Below, one piece after another: positions 3 through 50,058 of a DNA stretch of 50,058 bases. Position 1 is the stretch's first letter. Each line of letters opens with the position of its first letter. The notes below the pieces were generated by a model. That model was not told the origin of the DNA. It was given only the letters and a program-made list of their open reading frames with translations, and ran no database searches. The position numbers were made by a program, and so were the translations under genes. The stretch is taken from the IMG/VR virus record IMGVR_UViG_3300042691_035664, positions 1 to 50,058 of that record; one strand, 5' to 3'. The DNA is from a virus.

Positions 3-1139
3 ACTGATGAAAAGACAACTGCAATTTGTACTCTATCTTCTATGGTATTAAAGAACTACGTTAAAGATGGAGAGTTTGATTTCAAAGGGTTGTATGAGGA
101 AACACGTAAAGTTGTAAGAGCGTTGAACAAAGTAGTTAATATTAACAACTACTCAACTGAAAAAGGACGTAAAGGTGGGTTGGAACAAAGAGCAATTGCT
201 ATCGGAACTCAGGGACTTGCGGACGTATTCTATTTAATGGATTATATCTTCACATCTGATGAAGCGCGTAAATTGAATAAAGAAATTTTTGAAACCATTT
301 ATTTCGCAGCTATCACTGAAAGTAATAGATTGTGTATGGAAGGTGACTATGACCCATACGCTTACTTTAAAGGTTCACCAATGCATCAGGGAGTATTCCA
401 ATTTGATATGTGGGGATTGAAAGAAGATGAATTATCGGGAAGATGGCCTTGGGATATTCTAAAAGAGAATGTTAGTAAATACGGTGTTTGTAACTCTTTA
501 TTTACCGCTCAAATGCCTGTGGCATCTTCAGCTAAGATTACAGGTTCGTATGAAATGACTGAACCCGCTCACTCGGCAATCTTTAACCGACGTGTTGTTG
601 GTGGTGAGATTATGATTGTGAACAAGTATTTGATTAGTGATTTTGAAAAGATTGGTATTTGGTCTGAAGATTTAAAAAACGAAATCATTATGAATGAAGG
701 GTCGGTACAAGGAATTAACTTCTTGAATTATTTGGACCCTGAAGATAAAAGATATAATTTCAAAGTTAAACGAATCGAGCACTTAATTGAGAAGTACAAA
801 ACAATTTGGGAAATATCACAAAAATCATTGATTGAGATGGCGGCTGACAGAGCACCATTTATTGACCAATCACAATCAATGAATATCTATATGGGTAATC
901 CGACATTGTCTAAAATTTCTTCATCACATTTTTACGGATGGGAAAAAGGATTGAAAACACTTTGTTACTATGTAAGAACAAAGGCAATTTCAACAGGAGC
1001 AAAACACTTAGCAATTGATACATCAAAAATAAAAAAACCAAATCCAACCCCTGAACCACCAAAGGTAGACTATAGTTATATGAATTTACCTCCAAAACCT
1101 GAGAATAGTGATTTTGATTGTTTTGGATGTTCTTCTTAA
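3..1139 (+). CDS. nrdA: Ribonucleoside-diphosphate reductase class I, large (alpha) subunit, 3' part
   Basis: Reduces ribonucleoside diphosphates to deoxy forms for phage DNA synthesis, together with a small radical subunit not in this window. The frame is open to the left edge, so the start lies outside; codons run from base 3. The first visible residues include ICTLSS, whose Cys (bases 27-29) matches the second active-site cysteine of the family (Cys462 in E. coli). Further family blocks are GSPMHQGVFQFDMW, MPVASSAKITGSYE and NRRVVGGE. The radical-transfer tyrosine pair is in LCYYVRTKA. The C-terminal redox pair is CFGC, four residues from the end. The tail before it is rich in Pro and Lys, as expected for the flexible swinging arm. 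A hairpin terminator follows directly. The catalytic Cys/Glu loop lies upstream of the window and cannot be checked. Confidence 0.95.
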   Translation, partial: TDEKTTAICTLSSMVLKNYVKDGEFDFKGLYEETRKVVRALNKVVNINNYSTEKGRKGGLEQRAIAIGTQGLADVFYLMDYIFTSDEARKLNKEIFETIYFAAITESNRLCMEGDYDPYAYFKGSPMHQGVFQFDMWGLKEDELSGRWPWDILKENVSKYGVCNSLFTAQMPVASSAKITGSYEMTEPAHSAIFNRRVVGGEIMIVNKYLISDFEKIGIWSEDLKNEIIMNEGSVQGINFLNYLDPEDKRYNFKVKRIEHLIEKYKTIWEISQKSLIEMAADRAPFIDQSQSMNIYMGNPTLSKISSSHFYGWEKGLKTLCYYVRTKAISTGAKHLAIDTSKIKKPNPTPEPPKVDYSYMNLPPKPENSDFDCFGCSS

Positions 1140-1155
1140 ACAAATCCGATGTGTT

Positions 1156-1180
1156 ATCCCGAGCTAGGTCGGGATTTTTT
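1156..1180 (+). terminator. Rho-independent terminator after nrdA
   Basis: A perfect 7-bp stem (ATCCCGA at 1156-1162 with TCGGGAT at 1169-1175) has a 6-base loop and runs into a T tract ending at 1180. It separates nrdA from the structural block. Confidence 0.85.
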
Positions 1181-1191
1181 ATTTTAAAAAG

Positions 1192-1198
1192 TATTTAT
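1192..1198 (+). promoter_or_regulatory. TATTTAT start-proximal motif (candidate late promoter)
   Basis: TATTTAT ends four bases before the ATG at 1203, just downstream of the nrdA terminator. It is one of ten copies found close upstream of gene starts in this window. It is the reverse complement of the core of the T4 late promoter TATAAATA. The promoter role is inferred. Confidence 0.4.
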
Positions 1199-1202
1199 CT
1201 AT

Positions 1203-1970
1203 ATGTCTAACATAATACAAGAAGAAATTGAGAAGATAAGAAAAATGATGCTTTTGGAAAATATGGTCCAAGAGGGTGGTGCGAAAAAGTTAAAACAAAC
1301 TTTGGACATATTAAAAAAGAAAGAAAAAGTTTTATTATTAAGTTGTTCAAACCGATTTAATTGGGATGAAAAAAATATTGATATCCCAAAGTCCAAAATT
1401 ATTGCAATGTATCTTAAAGAAGAACTTGGAGACAAATGTGTTTTTATGGATGTATCAGAATTGAAAATTTTTCCTTGTGAAGGAAATGTATCAAGAGAAG
1501 AAGGTAATAGTTGTGGGGTTTTAAAATCATTACTTAAAGATAATAAAAAAAATCCTTCAGGTTATCATAGATGTTGGGCAAGTTTGAATAATAAAACAGA
1601 TGAACTTTGGAAAGTTTCTAAAGAACTTTTTGAATCTGATGCTGTTGTATTTTTTAGTTCAGTAAGATGGGGACAAGCAAATATGTTCTACCAAAATTTA
1701 ATTGAGAGATTAACTTGGATTGAAAATAGACACTATACTTTAGGTGAAAAAAATATTGTTGATGGTGTTGAAACAGGGTTTATTTGTGTTGGACAAAATT
1801 GGAATGGAGAGGAAGTCACTAAAACTCAAATGGAAGTTCATAAGTTTTATGGATTTACACCCAATAAGAAACTATATTGGAATTGGCAATATACTACAGA
1901 TGTTAACGACGAAAGCAAATCTTCTTACAAAAAATCCCACAAAAAATTCATTGATGATATGGGATTATGA
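1203..1970 (+). CDS. Flavodoxin-fold NAD(P)H-dependent oxidoreductase-like protein
   Basis: 255 aa. The core looks like the flavodoxin/NADPH-dependent FMN reductase fold: a first strand and phosphate-loop region KVLLLSCSNRF (about residues 42-52) and the segment FFSSVRWGQANMFYQNLIERL (about 150-170). That segment parallels the SPxYWGxxSxxxKxxIDR signature of WrbA and FMN reductase relatives. FMN binding and redox function are inferred from these. The first 20 residues form a separate predicted helix, SNIIQEEIEKIRKMMLLE, ahead of the fold. It is reminiscent of capsid-targeting leaders of T4 internal proteins and ends in an LLE that could suit a prohead protease; this is speculative. The gene follows a terminator and carries its own TATTTAT motif, so it is read as the first gene of the structural block and not as part of an nrd operon. 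The substrate is unknown. Confidence 0.65.
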   Translation: MSNIIQEEIEKIRKMMLLENMVQEGGAKKLKQTLDILKKKEKVLLLSCSNRFNWDEKNIDIPKSKIIAMYLKEELGDKCVFMDVSELKIFPCEGNVSREEGNSCGVLKSLLKDNKKNPSGYHRCWASLNNKTDELWKVSKELFESDAVVFFSSVRWGQANMFYQNLIERLTWIENRHYTLGEKNIVDGVETGFICVGQNWNGEEVTKTQMEVHKFYGFTPNKKLYWNWQYTTDVNDESKSSYKKSHKKFIDDMGL

Positions 1971-2142
1971 GATAGGTTATTATAAGTACCAATCCAAAGA
2001 AACACCATTAATAGATTGTATTAATTATTATCCAATTAACAATTTTATTTGTGAGTATCTACTTAAACAAGATTTTATTAAATTAGAATATGATAACAAT
2101 AAACCAAAAACTATTGATGGTAAAATCATTGTTTTGATATAA
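1954..2142 (+). CDS. Small overlapping ORF, 62 aa, unknown function
   Basis: ATG at 1954 overlaps the end of the flavodoxin-like gene by 17 bases in another reading frame and runs to TAA at 2140-2142. The product begins MIWDYEIGYYKYQSKET and is rich in Tyr, Ile, Asn and Lys. No domain is recognised. It fills a gap that would otherwise be about 200 bases, and its start overlaps the upstream stop as many real genes here do, which supports it. It could also be the remnant of a longer C-terminal part of the upstream gene. No clear Shine-Dalgarno sequence is visible. Confidence 0.45.
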   Translation: MIWDYEIGYYKYQSKETPLIDCINYYPINNFICEYLLKQDFIKLEYDNNKPKTIDGKIIVLI

Positions 2143-2156
2143 ATTTAATATTTCAG

Positions 2157-2163
2157 TATTTAT
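2157..2163 (+). promoter_or_regulatory. TATTTAT start-proximal motif (candidate late promoter)
   Basis: TATTTAT ends five bases before the ATG of the gp25-like gene at 2169, in a 26-base gap, at the head of the baseplate operon. The promoter role is inferred from recurrence. Confidence 0.4.
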
Positions 2164-2168
2164 ATCAT

Positions 2169-2630
2169 ATGGCGACAAACGAAACATATGGAGTAATTTT
2201 TCCTTTTAGAGACTCATTCTACGGAACTTACTTGGCGTTATCTGAGACAACTGATGAGGAAATTAGAAGTAATTTGATTCATCTTTTATTGACAAGAAAG
2301 GGTTCAAGATATTTTTTACCTGATTTTGGGACCCGACTATACGAATATATCTTTAATCCATTGGATGGTTTATCTTTTGGTGACATTGAATCTGATATTA
2401 GAGTTGCTTGTGAAAAATATTTACCAAGTCTATTAATTAAATCTATTAAAGTAACAGGGACTTCTTCAGAAGAAGATGACAAAATTGTTTTAAGTAACGG
2501 AGCGGTGATTGATAGAACTTACAGTATGCCAGGTGAAGCAACAAGAGATTATACTGCCAAAGTTAGGATTGACTATCAAGTACAAAACAATACTTTTGCA
2601 AGTAGTGATTTTATAATTTTGAATATTTAA
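2169..2630 (+). CDS. gp25: Baseplate wedge protein, gp25-like
   Basis: 153 aa; T4 gp25 is 132 aa. Gp25/GPW-family proteins join gp6 and gp53 in the baseplate wedge and help start sheath assembly. The family core is visible at about residues 24-60: EEIRSNLIHLLLTRKGSRYF followed by LPDFGTRLYEYIF. This matches the pattern in which a short helix, a T-x-x-G-x-R turn and a P-[DE]-[FY]-G motif occur in order. The gene is first in a tight operon, seven bases before gp6, which is its physical partner in T4. The start is preceded by TATTTAT rather than a Shine-Dalgarno sequence. Confidence 0.9.
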   Translation: MATNETYGVIFPFRDSFYGTYLALSETTDEEIRSNLIHLLLTRKGSRYFLPDFGTRLYEYIFNPLDGLSFGDIESDIRVACEKYLPSLLIKSIKVTGTSSEEDDKIVLSNGAVIDRTYSMPGEATRDYTAKVRIDYQVQNNTFASSDFIILNI

Positions 2631-2637
2631 TTTTTAT

Positions 2638-4476
2638 ATGGCTAACAAAAAAATATCATATACAGTCAGAGATTTTGAAGCGATAAGAACGGAACTTATC
2701 AATTTTACAAAAACTTACTATCCTGATGTAGTACAAAACTTTAACGATGCTTCGTTATTCTCAGTGTTTATGGATTTAAATGCTGCCGTAACCGATAACT
2801 TACACTATAATATTGATAGAAGTATTCAAGAAACAGTACTTCAATACGCTCAACAAAGGTCGTCAATTTATAATATTGCTAAGACCTACGGACTTAAAAT
2901 TCCTGGACAAAGACCATCAGTTGCGATGGCAGAATTAAGTATTACTGTACCTGTTCTTGGAGACCAAGAAGATTTAAGATACTGCGGATTTTTAAGAAGA
3001 GGTGCTCAAATGATTGGAGGAGGACAAGTTTTTGAAACTGTTGATGACGTTGATTTTTCATCACCATATAATTCACAAGGATTTCCAAATAGAGTTAAGA
3101 TACCAAATTTTGATAATAACAACAATCTTATTAATTACACAATTGTTAAAAGAGAGGTATTAGTTAATGGAACTACTAAAGTTTTTAGAAGAACAATTAA
3201 TGCTCAAGACGCTAGACCATTCTTAGAAGTATTTTTACCTGAACAAAATGTGTTATCAGTTACAAGTGTAATATTAAAAGATGGTACAAGTTATAATGGT
3301 ATTCCTGCTTATAGTGATTTTTTGAGTCCTAACGACAGATGGTATGAAGTACCTTCACTTGCTGAAGAAAGAGTGTTTATTGAAGACCCTACAAAGACCT
3401 CAGACAATCCTGGTATTAAAGTTGGAACATACATTACAACAAATACAAGATTCATTTCAGAATATACTCCACAAAATTATTGTAAATTAACATTTGGTGG
3501 TGGTAACAATTCCGCTGACGATATGTTAAGAGATTTTGCAAGAAACGGAGTTGTTTTAGATTTAAGTAAGTACCAAAATAACTTTGGATTAGGAAGTACT
3601 TTAAAACCAAATTCAACATTGTTCATTCAGTATAGAGTTGGTGGGGGTGCTGGAAGTAATTTAGGTGTTAATGTTATTAATCAAATTGGGACAATTAGTT
3701 TCTTTGTAAATGGACCAAGTCAAACAATTAATAGTAATGTAATTAATTCATTATCTTGTAATAATATAACAGCGGCAATTGGTGGGTCAGATGTTCCTAC
3801 AATTGAAGAAGTTAGAAATTATGTATCATATAATTTCGCGGCACAACAAAGAGCGGTAACAATTAATGACTATCAATCATTAATTAATACAATGCCGTCT
3901 AAATTTGGTGCACCCGGTAAAGTTGCAATTGTTGAACAAGAAAACAAAATTAAAATAAAAGTTTTATCTTACGATAGTAGTGGTTCGTTAACAAGTCAGG
4001 TATCAAATACTTTACAACAAAACATCGCAAATTATTTATCAAACTATAGAATGATAAATGATTATATTTCTGTGGAAGCAGCTCAGGTTGTTGACTTGTC
4101 ATTTGATATTAGTGTTGTTTTAGACTCGTCACAAAACCAAGGAAATGTTATTACATCTATTGTTGGTGTTGTTTCAACATATATGTCACCAGCAAGTCGT
4201 GAGATGGGTAGTAATGTTTATGTTTCAGAAATTAGAAGACAAATACAAAGTTTAAATGGTGTGATTAGTATCTCGGACATATCGGTATTCAACAAAGTAG
4301 GGGGAGAGTATTCATCGAGTCAAACCTCTATGAGTTATTCAAATTCAACTACAAAACAAATCAGTTTAGTTGATGAAACAATCTTTGCGGAACCAAGTCA
4401 AATTTACCAAGTTAGATTCCCAAATAAAGATATTGTTGTTAGAACTAAGAATTTACAAACTGTCAATTTCTCATAA
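2638..4476 (+). CDS. gp6: Baseplate wedge protein, gp6 / baseplate J-like
   Basis: 612 aa; T4 gp6 is 660 aa. In T4 a ring of gp6 dimers links the wedges of the baseplate. The N-terminal 110 residues (YTVRDFEAIRTELINFTKTYYPD, then NLHYNIDRSIQETVL) match the start of gp6-like proteins. Around residues 395-560 there is the baseplate-J-type core: RAVTINDYQSLINTMPSKFG, a strand rich in K/V (KIKIKVLSYD), a helical stretch ending NYLSNYRMINDYISV and a second strand-helix unit ending EIRRQIQSLNGV. The position directly after gp25 agrees. The start ATG at 2638 follows a T-rich stretch with no Shine-Dalgarno sequence. Confidence 0.9.
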   Translation: MANKKISYTVRDFEAIRTELINFTKTYYPDVVQNFNDASLFSVFMDLNAAVTDNLHYNIDRSIQETVLQYAQQRSSIYNIAKTYGLKIPGQRPSVAMAELSITVPVLGDQEDLRYCGFLRRGAQMIGGGQVFETVDDVDFSSPYNSQGFPNRVKIPNFDNNNNLINYTIVKREVLVNGTTKVFRRTINAQDARPFLEVFLPEQNVLSVTSVILKDGTSYNGIPAYSDFLSPNDRWYEVPSLAEERVFIEDPTKTSDNPGIKVGTYITTNTRFISEYTPQNYCKLTFGGGNNSADDMLRDFARNGVVLDLSKYQNNFGLGSTLKPNSTLFIQYRVGGGAGSNLGVNVINQIGTISFFVNGPSQTINSNVINSLSCNNITAAIGGSDVPTIEEVRNYVSYNFAAQQRAVTINDYQSLINTMPSKFGAPGKVAIVEQENKIKIKVLSYDSSGSLTSQVSNTLQQNIANYLSNYRMINDYISVEAAQVVDLSFDISVVLDSSQNQGNVITSIVGVVSTYMSPASREMGSNVYVSEIRRQIQSLNGVISISDISVFNKVGGEYSSSQTSMSYSNSTTKQISLVDETIFAEPSQIYQVRFPNKDIVVRTKNLQTVNFS

Positions 4477-38273: not shown

Positions 38274-41207
38274 TTAACAAAGACCTGTTGGTGATATTAA
38301 ACTTGGAGTTCCAAAATAGTTACCAGTGTAGTTCACATTTGCAGGGTATGATGGATTCCATCCCAACACCCTATCAATAAATGTACATTTCTTACTTGAT
38401 GCCATCGCGGATACCGCACTAACAAACCCTTGTCCAACAGTCGTTACTCCTGGTACAGGTACGTCTTGAGCTACAATTATTGGGTTTAATCCTCCACCAA
38501 CACATACTTTATAAACATAAGTATATGATATCATTGATGGTGTTGGTGTTACTGTCGGAGTTGGGGTGTTGGTAGGGGTTATTGATGGGGTAGGTGTTGG
38601 ACTAGTTCCTGGTGTACAAAACGCGCAATATAATAGATTACCTGACTCAACAGATGTTAAAGTATGTGTTGGTGCTTGAGATACATTTTCAGTATAAGTA
38701 ACACAATAACTAATGTTATTGATGAATACTGAAACAATTGCTCCAATTTCTAAATTATTTAAACTACCTGTTACTAAGAATATTTCACCCGAATTACAAT
38801 CCACTAATTTTTTAGATATTGGACATAACATATATTGGTCAAATGAATTATAAGTAACCGTACCCGATAAACTCACAGAGTATGGGATTGAACTTGATGT
38901 TGGTGAAGGGGTGGGTGTTGTTGGAATTCCTGTACTTATTGTTGTTGCGGATACTGTAACAGCCTTACCATAACATAATTGAGTTGGAGTTACCGTTGGG
39001 GTAACTGTAGGAGTAACTGTTGAAGTTGGAGTAACACTCGGTGTTAATCCTGGAAAAGTACCGCTAGTCCCACCACTTGTTGGTGAACAATCAAAGTAAG
39101 CCTCAAAGAAGAAATCATTACAAATATTTGATGGTGACGGAGTTGGAGTAACCGGTATTCCTTGAATTAATAAATCGTCACATAAATCAGGACAAAGACT
39201 TGTACAAGGACTTTTACCTTCTAAGATACAAGATTCTCCTAAATTTGCGGATAAACACCATCTTGATGTTGTTGAATTATAGTATATAAAATAAGTTCCA
39301 TTATTATAGAACGTGTTACCATTATATATTCCATAACTATAATATGTACCATCATAAATTGTGTATGATGGGTCATTAGTTACTAACGTATAAATATTAT
39401 TTGGACAATAAACATATGTTGTTGGGGTTACTGTTGGAGTTTTTGTTGGAGTTATTGTTGGGGTTGCGGTTGGTGTTGGGGATGGTATAGTTAATGGTGA
39501 TTGAGAAACTGTTGGAGTTACTGTGGATGTTGGTGTAGGTGTTGGTGTTCCAGGTGATGGTGTAACAGTTGATGTTGGAGTTATTGTTGGGGTTGGGGTT
39601 TTAGTAGGTGTTTTAGTTGGGGTCGCCGACCTAGCAGGAGTATTACTTGGAGTATTTGTTGGGGTAGGTGTCGGTGATGCAACAATAGGTGTATATGGGT
39701 ATACTGTTGAATTATTTGATGTCCCACCAACAGTACAGACTTGTACTAAATAAAAATAAACACTACCTGAATTATAACCAGGTATTGTGATTGTTCTCGG
39801 AGAAGTACAAGACCCTGCGTCAAATGAATATGTAATACCATCGGTTGAGTAATAAACTAATATTGTAGTACAGTTAGTAGTTGAACCCCAGTTCACTGTA
39901 AAATCTTCGGGAGCAGAATACGTTACTGATGTTATTTCAGGAACTGTACATCCTGGTGATGGAGTATTTGTTGGTGTTTTAGTTGGTGTTTTAGTTGGTG
40001 TTACAGTTTTAGTTGGTGTAGTTGTTGGTGTAACAGTTGTTGTTGGTGTGATTGTGGGTGTTGCAGTTCTTGTTGGTGTTATTGTTGGAGTTACACTTGG
40101 TGTTGGTGATGGTGGTATAATACCCGGACTTAATGTTGGTGTTGGTGTTGGTGTTTTAGTTTGAGTTGGTGTTTGAGTTTGTGTAGGGGTATTTGTTGGG
40201 GTCTGAGTTGGTGTACCCGTTGGAGTATTTGTTGGTGTTTTAGTTGGTGTTTTAGTAACTGTTTTAGTTGGTGTTACTGTTGGTGTTACTGTAGGTGTTT
40301 TAGTCATTGTCGGAGTTGGAGTTGGACTAGCACACGTTATACTCTCACCCGCAAAACACGCAGCGCAGGAAGTTTTACCGTAGCTAGTAATCGTTGTATC
40401 GACTAATGATGCTTCATACAAATATGTATATAATGGGTCGAATACAGTACTAAAAGAAAGTAATGTAAAACAACCTGAAATTTCTACATTTGTTGTTGTA
40501 TTTCTAATTGTTGTGTAATAGATTACTCCACCATCAGGTATTAACCCGTAAGTTAACCAAGGCAAATTCTGAACTTGATATTTGGTACCTGAACAACATT
40601 CTTCAAAAATATAATAGGCTGAAATATTAACAGGTGTCGGGGTTGGAGTTTTTGTTGGGGTTGGGGAACTATTTGGGCTAGGGGTTGGTGTTTTGGTAGG
40701 TGTTACACTTGGATTTGGTGTTGATGTTGGTGTTTTAGTCGGAGTGTTTGTTGGTGTTTTAGTTGGAGTTCTTGTTGGTGTTTTAGTGACTGTTGGAGTT
40801 GGAGTTTTAGTTCTAGTAACCGTTGGTGTTACAGTTTTAGTTGGTGTGACCGTTGGTGTTTTGGTCATTGTTGGTGTTGGGGATGGTGATGGGGCAACTG
40901 AACAAGGAACCACAGTTTTACAAGCTCCGCAACTCCCATAACCCCCGACACCCACAAATCCTGTAAATATTGTACTACTTGGTGGTGGAGATGTTCCTAA
41001 ATAAAAATCAATTTTGACACAATCCCCTGATGGGTATAAACTTGATTGTATTGCGTAAATCCCGCCTACATTATATGGTGCGGGAGCCCCACTACCGGGA
41101 GTGGTTCCGTCAGGGATATATGATGGGAAATATACTACGTATTGTTCACTTAATTCGGGTGACGAACAACATCTTAATACTTTATAATAACCTGAACTTA
41201 ATGGCAT
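38274..41207 (-). CDS. Large modular adhesin with Cys-rich modules on Pro/Thr linkers
   Basis: 977 aa. About six folded modules are separated by long Thr/Pro/Lys/Val linkers of T-P-T and K-T-P-T units. Module 1 (1-105, [20 protein letters not shown]) and module 2 (about 196-290, [15 protein letters not shown]) share the double-Cys pattern found at 33452. Module 3 (about 416-500) resembles fibronectin type III ([17 protein letters not shown]). Later modules are Cys- and aromatic-rich ([37 protein letters not shown]). No catalytic motif is seen. The gene is on the minus strand, unlike all its neighbours, and shares one base with the preceding 74-aa gene. It is probably a host-surface adhesin acquired or inverted as a cassette. 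Confidence 0.7.
40679..40694 (-). repeat. 16-bp inverted repeat, right copy (in Pro/Thr linker)
   Basis: Reverse-complement partner of 33809-33824. Both lie in the first linker after the double-Cys N-terminal module of their gene. Confidence 0.7.
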
Positions 41208-41509: not shown

Positions 41510-42406
41510 ATGGAAGATAATGAAATTCTTGTGGATATTGTAAGAGACCTTTTTGGTAAAGAGAAAAATTATTATGCTTCTAAAGGTCAAATTTCGGTAA
41601 ACTGTCCGTATTGTGACGAAGGTAATAACAAAGGTAACTTGGAGATTAATATATACGAACACGTATATAAATGTTGGGCATGTTCTGAAACAAATGGTAC
41701 CCACGGACCATTGGGTAAATTAATTGATATATTTGGTACCAAACGACAGAAGAAGACTTACGACCTATTCAAACCTGAGGAGTTAAAACAAAAAGATGTA
41801 TGGGTTAAGAAATTGACATTACCTAAAGAGTTTGTTTCCTTCAAAGATATTAATCCTTTACACATCCCACATAAAGAGGCTTTAAAATATGTTAAATCAC
41901 GAGGGATTACCGATGAGATGATTAAGAAATATAATATCGGATTCGCTTGCGAAGGGGAATATATGGGTAGAGTTATTGTTCCTTCATATGATAAGAATGA
42001 TGAATTAAACTACTTTGTGTCAAGAGCTTGGTTTAAGACTAAAAACAAATATAAAAACCCTGAAGCTCCAAAAGAGACAATAATTTTCAACGAGAAACTA
42101 ATTGATTGGACAAAACCAATTTACATATGTGAGGGGGTATTTGATGGATTCTTTACTCCAAACCCCGTAATTCTTCTTGGTAAGGTATTACACGACTTAT
42201 TATTTGAAACCATATATACTAAAGCTGAATCTGACGTTATTATTTGTCTTGACGAAGATGCGTGGGAGAATGCTAAAAAACTATACAATACTCTTAACGG
42301 TGGAAAGTTAAGGGGTAGAGTCAAAATTATCAAACTACCAAAGGACAAGGATGTTGCTGAGTTAAGAGGTAAAATTGATGATTATTTTTATAAAATGAAT
42401 TATTAA
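41510..42406 (+). CDS. DNA primase (zinc finger plus Toprim, gp61/DnaG-like)
   Basis: 298 aa; T4 gp61 is 342 aa. It makes RNA primers for lagging-strand synthesis with the phage helicase, which is not in this window. The N-terminal zinc-binding cysteines are C32, C35, C55 and C58 (NCPYCDEG; KCWACSE). The Toprim domain shows IYICEGVFDGF (catalytic Glu) and VIICLDEDAW (the D-x-D metal pair). Between them is a DnaG-like block with YVKSRGITDEMIKKYNIGF and RVIVPSYDKNDEL. The start ATG at 41510 follows a host-like promoter, and the nuclease gene follows one base after its stop. Confidence 0.9.
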   Translation: MEDNEILVDIVRDLFGKEKNYYASKGQISVNCPYCDEGNNKGNLEINIYEHVYKCWACSETNGTHGPLGKLIDIFGTKRQKKTYDLFKPEELKQKDVWVKKLTLPKEFVSFKDINPLHIPHKEALKYVKSRGITDEMIKKYNIGFACEGEYMGRVIVPSYDKNDELNYFVSRAWFKTKNKYKNPEAPKETIIFNEKLIDWTKPIYICEGVFDGFFTPNPVILLGKVLHDLLFETIYTKAESDVIICLDEDAWENAKKLYNTLNGGKLRGRVKIIKLPKDKDVAELRGKIDDYFYKMNY

Positions 42407-42407
42407 A

Positions 42408-43262
42408 ATGGATTTAAAAAAAATTGCATCTGAAATTCGAGAAATTTTAGAGGAAAAAAGAAAAGAAATGGAGTTGAGTTTCATCGAGGATACTCACACC
42501 TATTTTATGAAAGATACTGATGGTGAGGTTAAAAATACTTTTCCATCGGTATCAAAGGTATTGAAGAAGTTCTATCCTGAGTTCCCAACCGACGAAGCTG
42601 CGGAAAAGAAATCAAAGGGGGACCCTGTTGTTAAACAACAATTAATTGAGGAGTGGGCAGCGGCTGGTGATTACTCAACCAATATGGGAAGTCGGGTTCA
42701 CTACATTTTAGAAAAGAAACTAATTGAAAAACACGGAAGTTATAAGGAAGTTAGACAACCTGTTTTTGATTGTGACTTTACTCAAATATTAAAGGGTGAT
42801 AGTATGATTAATGCCGGTGGGAAATTCCTTAAATTAATGGAAGATAGGAATGTTGTCCTATTGGACACTGAAATGGTATTGGGACACCCTGAACTAGGAT
42901 ATACAGGTCAACCCGATAAAATTTGGTTGGTGATTAATAAAAAAGGGGATGAATATGGATTGTTAATAACTGACTGGAAAACAAACAAACCTAAGAATTT
43001 CCAAGCAAACAACTTCACAAAACCGATGTATAGTCCGTTCCAAAAGTATCCGAATACGGCATTAGGTCACTATTACGTACAGTTACCTCTTTATGGTAAA
43101 CTACTATTACAAATGTTGAAAGGTACCAAATACGAGAACATTAGACTATATGGATGTATTGTTGTATTATTGCGTGAAGATTCAGAATTTGAAGAATTCA
43201 GGGTACCACAAGATGTGATTGATACAGTTCTTAATATGACTGTGAAAGATTATTTAAATTGA
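42408..43262 (+). CDS. PD-(D/E)XK nuclease, RecB-like exonuclease family
   Basis: 284 aa. The RecB/Cas4-like nuclease motifs appear in order: GSRVHYILEKK (the G-x-x-x-H motif), LGYTGQPDKIW (acidic metal ligand), LLITDWKTNKP (D-x-K catalytic pair) and HYYVQLPLYGKLL (Q-x-x-x-Y). The first 50 residues are charged and helical, followed by SVSKVLKKFYP, usual for phage members of this family. It probably processes DNA ends during replication or host DNA degradation. It is in the primase operon, one base after its stop, close to gp47. A nickase or an RNA substrate cannot be excluded. Confidence 0.8.
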   Translation: MDLKKIASEIREILEEKRKEMELSFIEDTHTYFMKDTDGEVKNTFPSVSKVLKKFYPEFPTDEAAEKKSKGDPVVKQQLIEEWAAAGDYSTNMGSRVHYILEKKLIEKHGSYKEVRQPVFDCDFTQILKGDSMINAGGKFLKLMEDRNVVLLDTEMVLGHPELGYTGQPDKIWLVINKKGDEYGLLITDWKTNKPKNFQANNFTKPMYSPFQKYPNTALGHYYVQLPLYGKLLLQMLKGTKYENIRLYGCIVVLLREDSEFEEFRVPQDVIDTVLNMTVKDYLN

Positions 43263-43515: not shown

Positions 43516-43749
43516 ATGGATTTAGAAAAACCAAGAATTAATTTAAGAGAAATGAACTATATAGTTTGTGACTCTTGTGGATTTGACCAATTTAAAGAAG
43601 TTACGTACCTTAAATTGGTACCTAAACTTATGACAGGTTCACCAAATGATACCATTGTACCGTTCCCAACTTACGCTTGTATTAAGTGTGGACATATCAA
43701 TGATGAATTAAACCCTTTTAAAACTGATTCCCCTAAATTAGAATTATGA
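43516..43749 (+). CDS. Small zinc-ribbon protein
   Basis: 77 aa. Two Cys pairs (VCDSCGF and CIKCGH), about 39 residues apart and flanked by strands, fit a zinc ribbon. Such ribbons often bind nucleic acid or partner proteins. The stop overlaps the gp47 start as ATGA, so it is translationally coupled to the nuclease subunit and may act with it; that link is inferred. No close functional family is recognised. Confidence 0.65.
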   Translation: MDLEKPRINLREMNYIVCDSCGFDQFKEVTYLKLVPKLMTGSPNDTIVPFPTYACIKCGHINDELNPFKTDSPKLEL

Positions 43750-44525
43750 TAAAGAAATTAGTTCATTTTTCTGATTTACACGTTAGGTTGTTTAAAGACC
43801 ATCAATTGTATAAAACAATATTGGAGGACGCCTTTAATCAATGGAGAGAAATTCAACCTGATAGAATCGTATTCACAGGTGATTTGGTTCACTCAAAGAA
43901 TCAGATGACACCTGAACTTGTTGAATTTATTGCTTGGGTATTGACGGAGTGTTCAAAGATTGCCAAAACGGTATTAATCCCTGGTAACCACGACTTCCTT
44001 GAAAACAATATGGAAAGGTTGGATGCTTTAACACCTGTTGTTGACTCATTAAAAAATGATAACGTGGTTTATTACAAGAATAGAGGTGTGTATCAGGATG
44101 AAAACATTGACTGGTGTGTGTACTCACTTATGGACCACAACATCCCACCTGACATTGAAAAATCTGATAGAGTTAAGATTGGATTATTTCACGGACCTGT
44201 CCAAGGACTAACTACAAATCTTGGATTTAAGTTTGAAGATGGGTTTGAATCGTCAAAGTTTGATGGATGTGATTTAGTTCTTTGTGGCGATATCCATAAG
44301 AGACAAATCTTTGATATACCTGGTGGAAAGAAAGCGTATATGATTGGCTCAACGATATGTCAAAACTATGGTGAAACAATTACCAAACACGGATATGGTA
44401 TATACGATGTTGAAAAAGATGAATATGTTACCGTAGATATACACAATCCAAAACCATTCGTGGCATTTAGAATAAACTCATACGAAGATATTGAAAATGG
44501 TGTTGAAAAATTAGTAAATTATTAA
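43746..44525 (+). CDS. gp47: gp47-like (Mre11/SbcD) nuclease subunit lacking the usual C-terminal domain
   Basis: 259 aa; T4 gp47 is 339 aa. All metallophosphatase motifs are present: SDLH (Asp10, His12), GDLVH (Asp46), GNHD (Asn81, His82), His149 in FHGP and GDIHKR (Asp182, His184). With gp46 it resects DNA ends for recombination-dependent replication. It ends in NPKPFVAFRINSYED and then EKLVNY, the point at which T4 gp47 enters its C-terminal strand-helix-strand domain. That domain appears to be missing here and to be present at the N-terminus of the gp46 gene (see findings). The core is intact and should be catalytically active. Confidence 0.9.
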   Translation: MIKKLVHFSDLHVRLFKDHQLYKTILEDAFNQWREIQPDRIVFTGDLVHSKNQMTPELVEFIAWVLTECSKIAKTVLIPGNHDFLENNMERLDALTPVVDSLKNDNVVYYKNRGVYQDENIDWCVYSLMDHNIPPDIEKSDRVKIGLFHGPVQGLTTNLGFKFEDGFESSKFDGCDLVLCGDIHKRQIFDIPGGKKAYMIGSTICQNYGETITKHGYGIYDVEKDEYVTVDIHNPKPFVAFRINSYEDIENGVEKLVNY

Positions 44526-44558
44526 TTGTTAATATTCACACTTTTTGATAATTTAAGA

Positions 44559-44565
44559 TATTTAT
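44559..44565 (+). promoter_or_regulatory. TATTTAT start-proximal motif
   Basis: TATTTAT ends five bases before the ATG at 44571. It is the only copy found near a start within the replication block, and it heads the cassette that separates gp47 from gp46. Confidence 0.35.
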
Positions 44566-44570
44566 ATAAT

Positions 44571-44732
44571 ATGGGAAGAATTAAATTAAAGGATGAAGAT
44601 AAGAAAACAAAAGTATCTGTAGCTTTAGACCCTGAATTATTGAATTTTTATAGGTCATTACATATTAATTTATCTTCTTTGGTTAATAAATTACTTAAAG
44701 ATTATAGAGATGAAAAATACAAAGATTTGTAA
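44571..44732 (+). CDS. Ribbon-helix-helix-like small DNA-binding protein
   Basis: 53 aa from ATG at 44571 (MGRIKLKDEDKKT). A longer frame from a TTG at 44526 is not preferred because it would read through the TATTTAT element. The pattern KVSVALDPELLNFYRS followed by INLSSLVNKLLKDY matches a ribbon-helix-helix (Arc/CopG) fold: one strand and two helices. It probably regulates the adjacent endonuclease cassette. It overlaps the HNH gene by 23 bases in another frame. Confidence 0.6.
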   Translation: MGRIKLKDEDKKTKVSVALDPELLNFYRSLHINLSSLVNKLLKDYRDEKYKDL

Positions 44733-45363
44733 TAAATGTGGTGTTGAAAAGAAATTGTGTGAGTTTCATAAATCTAAAAATAAAACTGATGGTTATAGAC
44801 TGACTTGTAAGGAATGTAGGAAAGAGGAGTCTAAAAATAGATATCTGAATAATCCTGAATATTTTGAAAAATATAGAAAGGAAAATAGAGATAAGATAAT
44901 TGAATCGTTAACCGAGTGGAGAAAAAACAATTCAGAATATCGGAGAACCTACTATGAAAAAAATTATGAAAAAGAGATAGGTTATTATAAATTAAATCAC
45001 GAAAAAAATAAAAAAAATCAAAAAGAATATGTTAAAAACAAATACAAAAATAATGTTTTGTTTTCATTAAAATTAAAACTGAATGGTAGATTACATAAAG
45101 TGTTAAAAAGAAATAATTTTGAAAAAAAATATAGATTTACTGAAATACTTGGTTGTAATTTAGAAGAATTTAAAGTATATTTTGAAAGTAAATTTACAGA
45201 AGGAATGTCTTGGGATTTGATGGGTAAAGAAATTCATATTGACCACATAATACCTTGTGCTTCTGCTAAAACTGAAGAAGATATGATTAAATTATTTCAT
45301 TACACCAATTTACAACCTTTATGGGCTAAAGATAATATGAGTAAATCTGATAAAATATTATGA
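44710..45363 (+). CDS. HNH homing-type endonuclease
   Basis: 217 aa, Lys/Asn-rich. The N-terminal zinc finger has CNKCG and CKEC (about residues 7-37). The HNH core is near the C-terminus: IHIDHIIPCAS, then HYTNLQPLWAKDN and SKSDK. It is separated from the finger by a charged helical region (about 40-130) that could contact DNA. Free-standing HNH endonucleases are common selfish genes in T4-like phages and usually sit next to the site they cut, which here would be the gp47/gp46 junction. It ends as ATGA over the next start. The A-rich base composition differs from its neighbours. Confidence 0.85.
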   Translation: MKNTKICNKCGVEKKLCEFHKSKNKTDGYRLTCKECRKEESKNRYLNNPEYFEKYRKENRDKIIESLTEWRKNNSEYRRTYYEKNYEKEIGYYKLNHEKNKKNQKEYVKNKYKNNVLFSLKLKLNGRLHKVLKRNNFEKKYRFTEILGCNLEEFKVYFESKFTEGMSWDLMGKEIHIDHIIPCASAKTEEDMIKLFHYTNLQPLWAKDNMSKSDKIL

Positions 45364-45848
45364 ATAACAAATTAGAAATTGATATAAGCAAACAAGATTA
45401 TAAAGATTTATTAGAGTTTTGTAGGATGAATGATATAACTGATACTGAGGGTTTTGTTAAATTATGTTTTCGTAAGGGTTATTATATTGAGCGCTACGGG
45501 TTATTAAATCAAGGAACTCTACCTGATGTAATTGAACGGGAACTTGAAAAAGAGGTCATCAAAGAAGTTATTGTTGAAAAAGAAGTGATAGTTGAGAAAC
45601 CTGTAATTGATAATCAAAAGGTGGATGAATTACAAAATGAAATCTATATTTTAAAAGGTAAGTTAGAAAATCAAAAAGAAGTTGAGTGTGGTAAACTACA
45701 GGAAACTTTAATGGAGTTGAACCGACAAATAGGTGATAAAAATAACACAATAAAAGAAATGAGAAATAAAGTTAACGAACTTGAAAATCTAACAAAAAGT
45801 TCTTATGCTTTCTATATGAAAAACTCAAATCTTTCAGATAAACTATAA
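45360..45848 (+). CDS. Coiled-coil protein with helix-turn-like N-terminus
   Basis: 162 aa. Residues 1-50 (LEIDISKQDYKDLLEFCRMND, then FVKLCFRKGYYIERYG) are a strand-helix-helix unit similar to small phage DNA-binding folds. Residues about 60-150 form a long charged coiled coil (ERELEKEVIKEVIVEKEVIV; MELNRQIGDKNNTIKEM). The function is unknown. Its start overlaps the HNH stop. It may be part of the inserted cassette or an older phage gene displaced by it. Confidence 0.55.
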   Translation: MNNKLEIDISKQDYKDLLEFCRMNDITDTEGFVKLCFRKGYYIERYGLLNQGTLPDVIERELEKEVIKEVIVEKEVIVEKPVIDNQKVDELQNEIYILKGKLENQKEVECGKLQETLMELNRQIGDKNNTIKEMRNKVNELENLTKSSYAFYMKNSNLSDKL

Positions 45849-45857
45849 AATAAAATT

Positions 45858-46211
45858 ATGACAGCATTAGTAGCTTGGGCAGTACTAGCCTACGGATTTA
45901 GTACAATTATGGTCTACGGAACCATTTTTAAAGGAATGAGAAATTTCATAAAGGTATACGGGGAATCTGAATTGATGATGTCCGAAGTGTTCAAATTCAT
46001 TTCAGGAATATTATCTTGTATGATGTGTTGTTCAACGTGGATAGGGTTCTTTTTAGGTACATTTATTTACTCACCAACACACGAGTTATTTAACTTAACA
46101 CCATACGTTTCTTGGTTTTTTGACGGATTATTAGCGTCAGGGGCGGTATGGGCAATTAATGGATTCATCGAATGGTTTGAAGAAAACCGACCAAATAAAA
46201 ACAATTTATAA
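45858..46211 (+). CDS. Small membrane protein
   Basis: 117 aa with about three hydrophobic segments: ALVAWAVLAYGFSTIMVYG (about 3-21), FISGILSCMMCCSTWIGFFL (about 46-65) and the segment WFFDGLLASGAVWAINGF (about 86-103). A charged C-terminus (EWFEENRPNKN) follows. The Cys run in the second segment is unusual. It probably sits in the host inner membrane. No family is recognised; lysis, superinfection exclusion or replication anchoring are all possible and none is supported beyond topology. Confidence 0.65.
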   Translation: MTALVAWAVLAYGFSTIMVYGTIFKGMRNFIKVYGESELMMSEVFKFISGILSCMMCCSTWIGFFLGTFIYSPTHELFNLTPYVSWFFDGLLASGAVWAINGFIEWFEENRPNKNNL

Positions 46212-46223
46212 AAACAAACAAAT

Positions 46224-46397
46224 ATGCCAAAGTCAAGATTAAGACCAAACCACAAGCAGAAAGTTGCCGCTTGGAAAATGAGAACACTACACGCTGAAAA
46301 ACGTTACCAAAGAACAATGTCAGAATTGTTTCAAAAAATGAGAGAATCTCAATCAGGAACTACTGAGAACAATGAACCTGTTCAGCAAACCGTTTAA
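46224..46397 (+). CDS. Small basic protein, 57 aa
   Basis: 57 aa from ATG at 46224 to TAA at 46395-46397 (MPKSRLRPNHKQKVAAWKMR), with basic residues at the N-terminus and an acidic, Gln/Thr-rich tail. It lies 12 bases after the membrane-protein stop and overlaps the gp46 start by 26 bases in another frame. Small Arg/Lys/His-rich proteins of this look are frequent in T4-like phages and probably bind nucleic acid. The overlap with gp46 suggests coupled translation. Confidence 0.6.
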   Translation: MPKSRLRPNHKQKVAAWKMRTLHAEKRYQRTMSELFQKMRESQSGTTENNEPVQQTV

Positions 46398-48741
46398 TTT
46401 AGAAAGAGTTAAGATGATTAAAGATTTAGATTTTGATAAGTTGGAGAACCCATACGTACAAGTCGTATGGGAGGATTCTCCTGAAAACTTCACACAAGAA
46501 AAGTTAAAAAACGTAAAACATTACTTTCAAAAGAAGTATAACACAACCAGTGTTAATGTTATTACCAAACTTAAAAAGAGTGAAGAAGTTCAGGACAATG
46601 TTGATGTTTCATTCAATATTATGGATGAAAACTTCCAACACGAACTTATGAAATCTATTCTTGAATCTAAAGGACAAGTAAGCCTTTACGAGGATATTCT
46701 AAAGATTGACTCGGCAGTTAACAACAAAATGATTGCTGAACAAGAAGAAGTTGGGACATTTAAGAAGTGGTTTATTAAGAAGATTGAGTTTTCAAATTTC
46801 TTATCTTACGGAGATAATCAAACCCTTAACTTTGAAAAGTTAGGGGGGATTACCGTAATTGAATCTGACCCACCAAACTTTGGAGGTAAGACCGTATTGT
46901 CAGTTGACTTATTGTTATTCTTATTTTTCAACACAACAACCAAGACAAGTAAAGCTGAAGAGGTGTTTAACCGATATTCAGGAAAAGACAAAGTATCTGT
47001 TCGTGGTGAGATTGTTATTGATGGTGAGGATTACATTATTGTAAGGGAACTTGACAGAAAGAAATCAAAGGCAGGTGAATGGAATGTCAAAACTGAATTA
47101 GACTTCTTTAAAAAGTATCCTGATGGTTCATTGGTTAAATTTACAGGAGAACAACGTCGTGAAACCGAGAACTTTATCAAAACATCTATTGGAAGTTATG
47201 ATGACTTCTTGATGACCATTTTGACTACAGGTACCAATCTTGAAGATTTGTTGGATGCTAAACCAACAGCTCGTGGACAAGTCCTATCAAGATTCTTGGG
47301 ATTGGATTTCCTTAAAAGAAAAGAAGAAACCGGTAAAGAAATCTATTCGGTGTTTTCCAAATCAATGATTTCCAATATCTATAATACTGAATCATTAAAG
47401 ACTCAAAATGAAGAGTTAACTTCGAGTAACACAACTTTGAATTCAAGTATTAGTGAAAGTAAGGACAAATTAGTTGAATCACAAGGACGCATTGTTAAAG
47501 GACAAGAATATCGTGATAACTTATTAAAATCTAAGGTTGTAGTTGAAAAAGAATTGACTCTTTTAAACCCTGAACAGACTAAGAAAGAAATTGATGGGTA
47601 CCAAAATCAAGTTGACCAAAACATTAAATTACGTGATGGTATAAACATTGTTGAACCTACTGAATTTTACCACGAGGACCAACACGATAAGGTTAAGGAA
47701 GAGTACCAAAAGGCTTACAAACAAAAGATTGAGGTTGATACTAACATATCAGGTATTGAAAAGTTGAAAAGTTCTGTAAGTGGTGGAATCAAATGTGAAC
47801 ACTGTGGTATTGAACTTATGAACGCAGCAATTACCCAATCAAGAATTGCTGAACTTGATGGTTATAACATGCAAAAAACCCAAATTGAGGGGGTAATGTC
47901 TGATTTATCAAGCAAAGAACAAGGGTTTGTTAAGTTGAAAAAAGACTTTGATGAGTACGAAAGAAACAAATTAATTTATGAAAAGTATCAAGCAACAATC
48001 GAAACTCTCCAAACAAAGAAAGACACTCTTGAGTCAAAACTTAATAGATATGGAGAGATGCAAGATGTTATCAAGTCTAATGAACAAATCGAAGCTCAGA
48101 TAATTAAGGCTAATATGAGACTTGAGGAGTTGAAAAGAGAAGAAGAATTAATTAAAAAGAACATCTCTAACTTCGAGTTTCAAATTAAACAAAACGATGA
48201 TAAGATTGAAAACAACTTAAAGACTATTGTTAAAATCGCTGAGGAACAAGAGAAGGAAATTAAGTACAAATTATATTTGGAATTGTTTGGTAAGAATGGA
48301 ATTGCTAAACGTATTATGAAGAGTATGATGCCACTTATTAACTCTGAGTTACAAAGATTATTACAAGATTCTTGTTACTTTAGATTAGAGATTCGTATTA
48401 GTGAAAAGAATGAGGTTGAGTTTTGGATGATTGATAACAACACCCAAGTTGAGAAACTTATGACCACAGGTTCAGGGTATGAGAAAACAATTGCGTCACT
48501 TGCATTAAGAGCGGTTCTTGCTAAAGTTTGTTCTTTACCTAAACCAAACATTACAGTATTTGACGAGGTGTTTGGTAAGATATCAAACGATAACTTGGAG
48601 ATGGTTTATGAGTTCTTTATCAAGATTAAAGAATATTTTGAAAATATTTTGGTCATCACTCACAATCCGATGATTTCAAATTGGGCGGACAATGTAATTA
48701 AAATTACAAAAAACGACAATATATCAAAAGTTAGTCAATAA
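46372..48741 (+). CDS. gp46: gp46-like (Rad50/SbcC) recombination ATPase with an extra N-terminal domain
   Basis: 789 aa; T4 gp46 is 560 aa. The ATPase domain starts near residue 130 (WFIKKIEFSNFLSYGDN). Other marks are a P-loop SDPPNFGGKT (Lys173, with the first Gly of G-x-x-x-x-G-K replaced by Pro), a zinc hook CEHC (Cys475, Cys478) in the middle of a long coiled coil, an ABC signature TGSGYEKTIASLALR (near 700) and Walker B ITVFDEVFG (Asp731, Glu732). It supplies the ATP-driven clamp for the gp47 nuclease. Residues 1-125 are not part of standard gp46 and resemble the C-terminal domain of gp47 (NPYVQVVWEDSPENF, then acidic DNVDVSFNIMDEN and a helix). This looks like a domain transfer from gp47. 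Confidence 0.85.
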   Translation: MNLFSKPFNLERVKMIKDLDFDKLENPYVQVVWEDSPENFTQEKLKNVKHYFQKKYNTTSVNVITKLKKSEEVQDNVDVSFNIMDENFQHELMKSILESKGQVSLYEDILKIDSAVNNKMIAEQEEVGTFKKWFIKKIEFSNFLSYGDNQTLNFEKLGGITVIESDPPNFGGKTVLSVDLLLFLFFNTTTKTSKAEEVFNRYSGKDKVSVRGEIVIDGEDYIIVRELDRKKSKAGEWNVKTELDFFKKYPDGSLVKFTGEQRRETENFIKTSIGSYDDFLMTILTTGTNLEDLLDAKPTARGQVLSRFLGLDFLKRKEETGKEIYSVFSKSMISNIYNTESLKTQNEELTSSNTTLNSSISESKDKLVESQGRIVKGQEYRDNLLKSKVVVEKELTLLNPEQTKKEIDGYQNQVDQNIKLRDGINIVEPTEFYHEDQHDKVKEEYQKAYKQKIEVDTNISGIEKLKSSVSGGIKCEHCGIELMNAAITQSRIAELDGYNMQKTQIEGVMSDLSSKEQGFVKLKKDFDEYERNKLIYEKYQATIETLQTKKDTLESKLNRYGEMQDVIKSNEQIEAQIIKANMRLEELKREEELIKKNISNFEFQIKQNDDKIENNLKTIVKIAEEQEKEIKYKLYLELFGKNGIAKRIMKSMMPLINSELQRLLQDSCYFRLEIRISEKNEVEFWMIDNNTQVEKLMTTGSGYEKTIASLALRAVLAKVCSLPKPNITVFDEVFGKISNDNLEMVYEFFIKIKEYFENILVITHNPMISNWADNVIKITKNDNISKVSQ

Positions 48742-49355: not shown

Positions 49356-50058
49356 ATGATAAATAAACAATCTGTTATTCCTATTAATCAGGACGAAGTT
49401 AGTCATTACTTAAAAGACATTAGAAAAATTAAGGTAATGACTGTCGAGAGAGAACGAGAACTTTCAATTTTAATGCAGTCTGAAAATGTTACAGAAAAAC
49501 AAAAAGACTCAATCAAGAAGGAAATTGTTGAAGGTAACCTTAGATTTGTTATCACAGTTGCGAAACAATACCAAAACCAAGGGGTTGATTTTCCGGACTT
49601 GGTAGCTGAAGGTAATTTAGGCTTGATTAAAGCTTTGAACAATTTTGATTGGTCAAAGAACCTACGATTTATTTCATATGCGGTTTGGTGGATTAGACAG
49701 TCAATCCTACAGTCTTTGAATGAACATTCTCGTACCATCCGTATTCCTGTGAATGTTGTCCAAGATTTACAAAAAGAAAAGAAACGAATTGAAAAGACAG
49801 GGGACAAAATGGGGGATAAGTTTGCAAACCTTCCATTCACTATTAACTTGGAAAGTCAAATTAATGAAGAGGGGGACACTTTGATTGATTTGATTGAGAA
49901 CAAGGATTCAATGAGACCTGATGAAGTTTTTAACACAACAACTCAATTAAAGGATGGATTAATTAATATTATGAATATCCTTGATGAACGTGAAAAACAA
50001 ATTGTTGAGGATTATTACGGTATATCAGGTACCCCAAGAACACTTGAAGATATTGGTT
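49356..50058 (+). CDS. Phage-encoded sigma-70 family factor, cut by the window end
   Basis: At least 234 aa, open at the right edge. Region 1.2 is near residues 14-40 (VSHYLKDIRKIKVMTVERER). Region 2 is complete and close to Bacteroidetes housekeeping SigA: GNLRFVITVAKQYQNQG, LVAEGNLGLIKALNNFD, FISYAVWWIRQSILQSL, SRTIRIPVNVV. Region 3 is much shortened between VNVV and the LESQINEEGDTLIDLIE segment. Region 4 begins at LDEREKQIVEDYYG and runs into the edge. It is not like T4 gp55, which keeps little of region 2. It probably redirects host RNA polymerase to phage promoters. The ATG at 49356 follows the upstream stop by 13 bases. Confidence 0.9.
   Translation, partial: MINKQSVIPINQDEVSHYLKDIRKIKVMTVERERELSILMQSENVTEKQKDSIKKEIVEGNLRFVITVAKQYQNQGVDFPDLVAEGNLGLIKALNNFDWSKNLRFISYAVWWIRQSILQSLNEHSRTIRIPVNVVQDLQKEKKRIEKTGDKMGDKFANLPFTINLESQINEEGDTLIDLIENKDSMRPDEVFNTTTQLKDGLINIMNILDEREKQIVEDYYGISGTPRTLEDIG

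Follow-up and report, generated by a model that had tools for sequence, protein, structure and literature searches.

A phage gp47/gp46 (Mre11-Rad50) pair whose chain break appears to lie inside the capping domain

Introduction

The window analysed here, i.e. the whole stretch of 50,058 nucleotides of the IMG/VR virus record IMGVR_UViG_3300042691_035664, carries a homologue of the nuclease gp47 (SbcD/Mre11) that ends early and, further downstream on the same strand, a homologue of its ATPase partner gp46 (SbcC/Rad50) that begins early. This locus raises the question of whether the segment lacking from the one chain is the segment present in excess on the other and, if so, how it came to stand there. 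As argued below, the pair is likely a two-chain Mre11-Rad50 with the break inside the capping domain, produced by fusion and then fission, the order of these two events being drawn from parsimony.

The two chains in the window

The two chains and their parts are the following, gp46 residues being counted along the longest open reading frame (ORF):

43746-44525, + strand: gp47/Mre11-type nuclease chain, 259 amino acids, with metallophosphoesterase domain and putative first part of the capping domain (PF00149, phrog_100, motifs)
44446-44522, + strand: gp47 tail KPFVAFRINSYEDIENGVEKLVNY, final segment ahead of the break, aligned with the matching segment of fused proteins and kept in split relatives
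46414-48741, + strand: gp46/Rad50-type ATPase chain with a probable N-terminal Mre11 domain, 775 amino acids from the likeliest start (phrog_77; start from codon-position variability)
46456-46572, + strand: relocated strand-helix-strand, gp46 residues 29-67, putative second part of the capping domain (AlphaFold2 elements; homology to the linker domain of fused proteins)
46573-46626, + strand: acidic flexible linker, gp46 residues 68-85 (predicted local distance difference test, pLDDT, below 50 at residues 68-79)
46627-46740, + strand: relocated helix-loop-helix, gp46 residues 86-123, putative Rad50-binding domain (model; position and pattern as in T4-like gp47 tails)
46762-47361, + strand: ATPase N-lobe, from gp46 residue 131 (ATPN profile made from window residues 131-330)
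47794-47805, + strand: CxxC motif CEHC at gp46 residues 475-478, tip of the coiled coil, resembling a zinc hook (C478 near-invariant in the gp46 alignment)
48289-48738, + strand: ATPase C-lobe, residue 731 opening the Walker B sequence DEVF (PF13558 SbcC_Walker_B, E-value 2e-5, slightly below its cut-off)

The nuclease chain matches PF00149 (E 8e-13, above cut-off) and the SbcD-like family phrog_100 (E 1e-27), and exhibits all of the calcineurin-like phosphoesterase motifs, namely DLH10, GDLVH45, GNHD80, LFH147 and GDIH181. The second of these (43878-43892) stands in place of the usual GDxxD, with H for the last D, a change identical to that of Mimivirus R555 (PMC3175470). The first-pass annotation had described a gp47 of 259 residues ending in EKLVNY, which is what the ORF encodes. 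The T4 protein, with 339 amino acids, runs on into a strand-helix-strand-acidic-helix-helix region, and T4 gp46 begins at the ATPase; split-type gp47 does not hold the capping domain and the C-terminal Rad50-binding domain in one chain, the 128 complete proteins all measuring 259-274 amino acids (85 of them exactly 259) and the remainder sitting on the gp46 N-terminus.

The ATPase chain, which matches the SbcC-like family phrog_77 (E 8e-42), has the split ABC ATPase head, coiled coil and CxxC hook of its family, with long helices at residues 339-387, 400-462 and 491-638 in the full-length model; a search with PF13476 in the chain's own record gave no match, and the P-loop is divergent. The longest ORF (46372-48741) codes for 789 amino acids, of which about 130 precede the ATPase start KKWFIKKIEFSNFLSYG, in agreement with the earlier count of about 125 extra residues and with the motifs then quoted. 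In this extension, AlphaFold2 predicts strands at residues 29-35 and 61-67 flanking a helix at 42-56, then helices at 86-100 and 103-123. The full-length model gives the last two as 86-99 and 103-123 with a block mean pLDDT of 92-93, i.e. a predicted fold in which a helix-loop-helix follows a disordered acidic linker, colinear with T4-like tails. Regarding the start, codon-position variability places the onset of purifying selection at an invariant ATG, gp46 residue 15, with an in-frame stop codon shortly before it in one relative (L179); the start is thus probably 46414 rather than 46372. The in-frame stretch 46372-46414 lies partly over the end of the ORF before it.

Recurrence of the arrangement in viral contigs

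Scans of viral contigs returned 66 loci with gp46 and 419 matching stretches with gp47, of which 80 were kept, and profiles for the nuclease, the extension and the two ATPase lobes were run over all loci. Pairs made of a nuclease and a separate extension-ATPase chain number 131 among them, and the arrangement of the window is therefore not due to chance. The short gp47 (259-274 amino acids) is found everywhere bar three fragments, and a full-length gp47 alongside an extended gp46, which would have spoken against a displaced domain, occurs in none of the 131 split loci. In the window, the nuclease and the ATPase are borne by two ORFs, not one polypeptide, about 1.85 kb apart, and in relatives the spacing ranges from 847 to 3550 nucleotides and holds several genes. 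In three loci (L047, L061 and L091), gp47 and/or gp46 are seemingly broken into more ORFs, by frameshifts, sequencing errors or further splits.

Single-chain relatives and the origin of the split

Fused relatives, collected by tblastn against named phages and by two further scans of viral contigs, amount to about 33 loci, about 30 of them viral contigs. Among named phages, the closest matches to gp46 and gp47 lie in the same frame of the 735-kb phage LR756501 (1202 amino acids), and both lie in one annotated gene of Microcystis phage Mel-JY01 (1066 amino acids) and in a single gene of Tenacibaculum phage PTm1 (1318 amino acids). The split proteins align straight through the fused ones, in the order nuclease, KPFVAFRIN..., break, NPYVQVVWED..., helix, VNVITK, acidic linker, two helices and ATPase. 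Besides, HHalign comparison of the extension with the linkers of fused proteins gives E-values of 4e-11 and 3e-8, for reversed controls mostly at 0.2-0.4 and at best 0.005. Between two shared anchors, a deep-branching split pair (L055) has 27 residues and LR756501 has 28; almost nothing was therefore lost or gained at the break.

Since these relatives carry nuclease, domain and ATPase as one chain, fission of a fused gene is the probable source of the split. The first-pass annotation had the domain moving to gp46; it does now belong to gp46, but it more likely stayed put while a fused gene was split around it. A canonical pair, i.e. nuclease-capping-Rad50-binding domain on one side and ATPase on the other, would first have been fused into one gene, as in the jumbo-phage and Microcystis-phage lineages; a conserved two-gene cassette would then have been inserted between two strands of the capping domain, reopening the fused gene, and the downstream part would finally have gained its own start codon.

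Trees of the nuclease and ATPase lobes (FastTree, and IQ-TREE with 34 taxa), rooted on E. coli SbcCD, recover the split proteins as one clade (FastTree 0.996; IQ-TREE 99), sister to the Mel-type fused proteins (1.0; 100). As the split loci form one clade, they represent one event and not 131, and the counts given above are not those of independent events, a point against the reading. Also to be set against it, a topology in which the fused proteins form a group of their own, the split ones lying outside it, is not rejected by the approximately unbiased (AU) test (p 0.057), so that the nesting of split among fused proteins is favoured, not proved. These same figures, together with the moderate support of the clade that unites fused and split proteins (0.73; 71), are what can be said for the alternative in which the segment passed from gp47 to gp46 by rearrangement of neighbouring genes, with no fused intermediate, fusion following later from the split state. 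That course of events is nonetheless unlikely: it requires the transfer of exactly one mid-domain segment to the adjoining gene, the junction agrees with the fused chain in length and order nearly to the residue, as would be left by fission, and the grouping of the split clade with the Mel-type fused proteins has a support of 100.

Identity of the gp46 extension

That the extension is the missing C-terminal part of gp47, now covalently joined to the ATPase, as had been proposed from the window alone, is supported by the homology to fused linkers and by colinearity with T4-like gp47. A nuclease-part profile built from fused proteins and from split ones (gp47 concatenated with the extension) aligns with full-length T4-like gp47 over 349 columns, colinearly to the C-terminus (E 5e-19); the score comes mainly from the nuclease, the tail being nonetheless aligned without shift. 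Read by eye, the gp47 tails of Aeromonas, Klebsiella, Vibrio, Synechococcus, Salmonella, Salicola and Serratia phages display a strand, a helix, a strand, an acidic stretch and two helices, and the tail of E. coli SbcD a similar strand-helix-strand-linker-two-helix pattern. The predicted secondary structure of the extension is identical in element order to that of T4-like tails, and the unrelated fold that could have been expected of a foreign domain did not appear. With full-length gp46 as a Foldseek query, PTm1 and long giant-virus DNA-repair proteins (1193-1389 amino acids, one of 969) stand in the top ten viral matches, ahead of stand-alone gp46.

The extension taken alone speaks less clearly, and its model, its profile comparisons and its Foldseek searches count against its identification. 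Its isolated model is of low confidence (pLDDT 69; predicted template modelling score 0.31), its comparison with T4-like C-termini is weak (E 0.012, vs. about 0.4 for reversed sequences) and its profile did not match E. coli SbcD. Foldseek with the extension alone returned nothing significant, the PDB entry 3av0_A (Mre11) coming at rank 29 with E 1.5, and in BFVD exonucleases/SbcD held ranks 1 and 2 and an endonuclease subunit rank 5, at non-significant E-values of 0.07-0.18. Scans of the extension against Pfam, PHROG and NCBIfam gave weak scattered matches only, e.g. phrog_11953 'exonuclease' (E 0.01-0.03), tblastn against named phages gave none, and a sequence search of solved structures found nothing for the extension and nothing for T4 gp47. 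The weak direct comparison with T4 and the non-significant Foldseek results would suit an unrelated, lineage-specific N-terminal domain next to a gp47 that merely lost its C-terminus. Such a coincidence is very improbable given the significant homology of the extension to the nuclease-to-ATPase segment of fused proteins, the colinear alignment with whole T4-like gp47 and the matching order of predicted elements.

Mre11 is organised as nuclease, capping domain, flexible linker and Rad50-binding domain (PMC6265447, PMC13402864). By this topology, the strand-helix-strand of the extension would complete the capping domain, as its second part, and the helix pair that follows would be the Rad50-binding domain. 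Since the strand-helix-strand is read in this way, the chain break would fall inside the capping domain and not at a clean domain border.

Least probable of all, by a little, is that splicing of a large intron or split intein restores a single Mre11-Rad50 chain: an HNH-type ORF does break the nuclease part at the same GDIH site in a split (L011) and a fused (L069) locus, but no Rfam intron is found in the window, nor in L011 and L069 at E <= 1, the gp47 stop position and the gp46 start ATG are conserved, the intervening stretch is variable and holds several genes, and the junction sequences as read have no intein-like ends. In the two loci (L011:3229-5053 and L069:4950-9175), the interruption comes just after the metal-binding motif GDIH(K/L)RQ and is followed by a zinc-finger/HNH-type ORF of about 305 amino acids, with similar read-through tails (...DEYLKKGW and ...LEKYLNSGW); intron-like elements may target these genes, since the interruption site is shared.

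Genes between gp47 and gp46

The intervening stretch of the window holds five ORFs:

44571-44732, + strand: CcdA-like small ORF, 53 amino acids from ATG, paired with the HNH ORF, apparent sporadic insertion (PF07362, E 8e-6)
44710-45363, + strand: HNH/endonuclease VII-like ORF, apparent sporadic insertion outside the split proper (phrog_1035, E 8e-20)
45360-45848, + strand: conserved intervening gene 1, with N-terminal domain and coiled coil
45858-46211, + strand: conserved intervening gene 2, with a hydrophobic product and a weak match to DUF1360 (PF07098) that falls short of the cut-off at E 0.03
46224-46397, + strand: small basic ORF, 57 amino acids, found in many close relatives

Homologues of the two conserved genes, which make up the cassette proposed above, lie between gp47 and gp46 in all 131 split loci, and none flanks the 33 fused or the 24 T4-like canonical loci; fusion followed by fission through its insertion is the most economical reading. 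As to the HNH endonuclease cassette that the first-pass annotation placed between the two pieces, it is there, with the CcdA-like ORF before it, but a part in the split is rejected, since only 5 of the 131 split loci have a homologue of it between the two genes; by this distribution, it is best taken as a later, sporadic insertion. A CcdA-like ORF overlaps an HNH ORF in three phages and two genomic places (window 44571-45363, L004:523-1342 and L036:2371-3133), the CcdA-like ORF of L004 being 100% identical over 53 amino acids to that of the window and the HNH proteins 39% identical. The two look like a mobile pair.

A duplicated boundary, proposed earlier from the resemblance (KPF...KL.NPY) between the gp47 end and the gp46 start, does not withstand comparison with the 131 relatives or the start-codon analysis. 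In the window, the resemblance has p ~0.01 against shuffles; KPF is present in 111 of 131 gp47 tails vs. 9 of 131 gp46 starts, and in deep-branching relatives gp46 begins directly at M(A)NPFIKV. The KPF stretch ahead of gp46 is probably untranslated, since coding constraint starts at 46414 and L179 has its in-frame stop upstream.

Comparison with known systems and possible functioning

Like the T4-type gp47/gp46 (SbcD/SbcC, Mre11/Rad50), the window pair consists of two chains from neighbouring genes with the same parts in the same linear order, i.e. nuclease, capping domain, helix-loop-helix and ABC ATPase with coiled coil and CxxC. Unlike it, the chain is broken earlier and the C-terminal domain stands on gp46, whereas T4-type gp47 (339-374 amino acids) bears its own and most gp46 begin at or near the ATPase. 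With the phage fusions, the window type shares the homologous inter-domain segment and a sister-group position in the tree; it differs from viral fusions (R555, 0305phi8-36, PTm1, Mel-JY01) in consisting of two polypeptides encoded 0.8-3.6 kb apart with other genes between, the break falling within the Mre11 part. Mre11-Rad50 fusions have been published for Mimivirus R555 and Bacillus phage 0305phi8-36 (Yoshida et al., 2011, PMC3175470); the alternative split appears to be new, no description of it having been found in the open full-text literature, a search outside which subscription papers and preprints lay.

The two proteins would form the usual 2:2 end-processing complex, gp47 supplying the nuclease and the first capping strands, and the gp46 N-terminus the remaining strand-helix-strand and the helix-loop-helix. 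The Rad50-binding helices would then act in cis, gripping the base of gp46's own coiled coil, and the capping domain would re-form between two chains, tethering the nuclease to the ATPase. The capping domain links the state of the ATPase to nuclease access, and T4 Mre11 is reportedly autoinhibited by its C-terminal domain (Gao and Nelson, 2014, cited in PMC13402864); if such autoinhibition holds in the split lineage, control would pass to the ATPase chain. There is about an even chance that this is a natural split-protein Mre11, with a capping domain built from two chains, a gp47 that becomes a whole nuclease only with gp46, and the usual control in cis by its own C-terminal domain replaced by control from the ATPase chain.

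To our knowledge, all well-studied Mre11-Rad50 systems have the Rad50-binding domain as part of Mre11, a flexible linker letting it reach Rad50; in the present phage lineage, which is widespread, it would be covalently attached to Rad50, with the break inside the capping domain. Related phages thus offer three natural states (canonical pair, single chain and alternative split), the comparison of which is a way to ask how nuclease activity is coupled to ATP hydrolysis through the capping domain and linker, as well as a ready two-part Mre11 whose assembly is open to assay. Of note, length-based annotation may label such gp47 genes as truncated.

Surrounding genes of the window

A replication/recombination block surrounds the locus (41510-43262 upstream and 49356-50057 downstream), with a primase (phrog_47), an exonuclease (phrog_298) and an RNA polymerase sigma factor (phrog_351). 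Further upstream, on the - strand (38274-41207), is encoded a 977-amino-acid protein rich in PTPT/TPTxTPT repeats, which lie between short unrelated domains.

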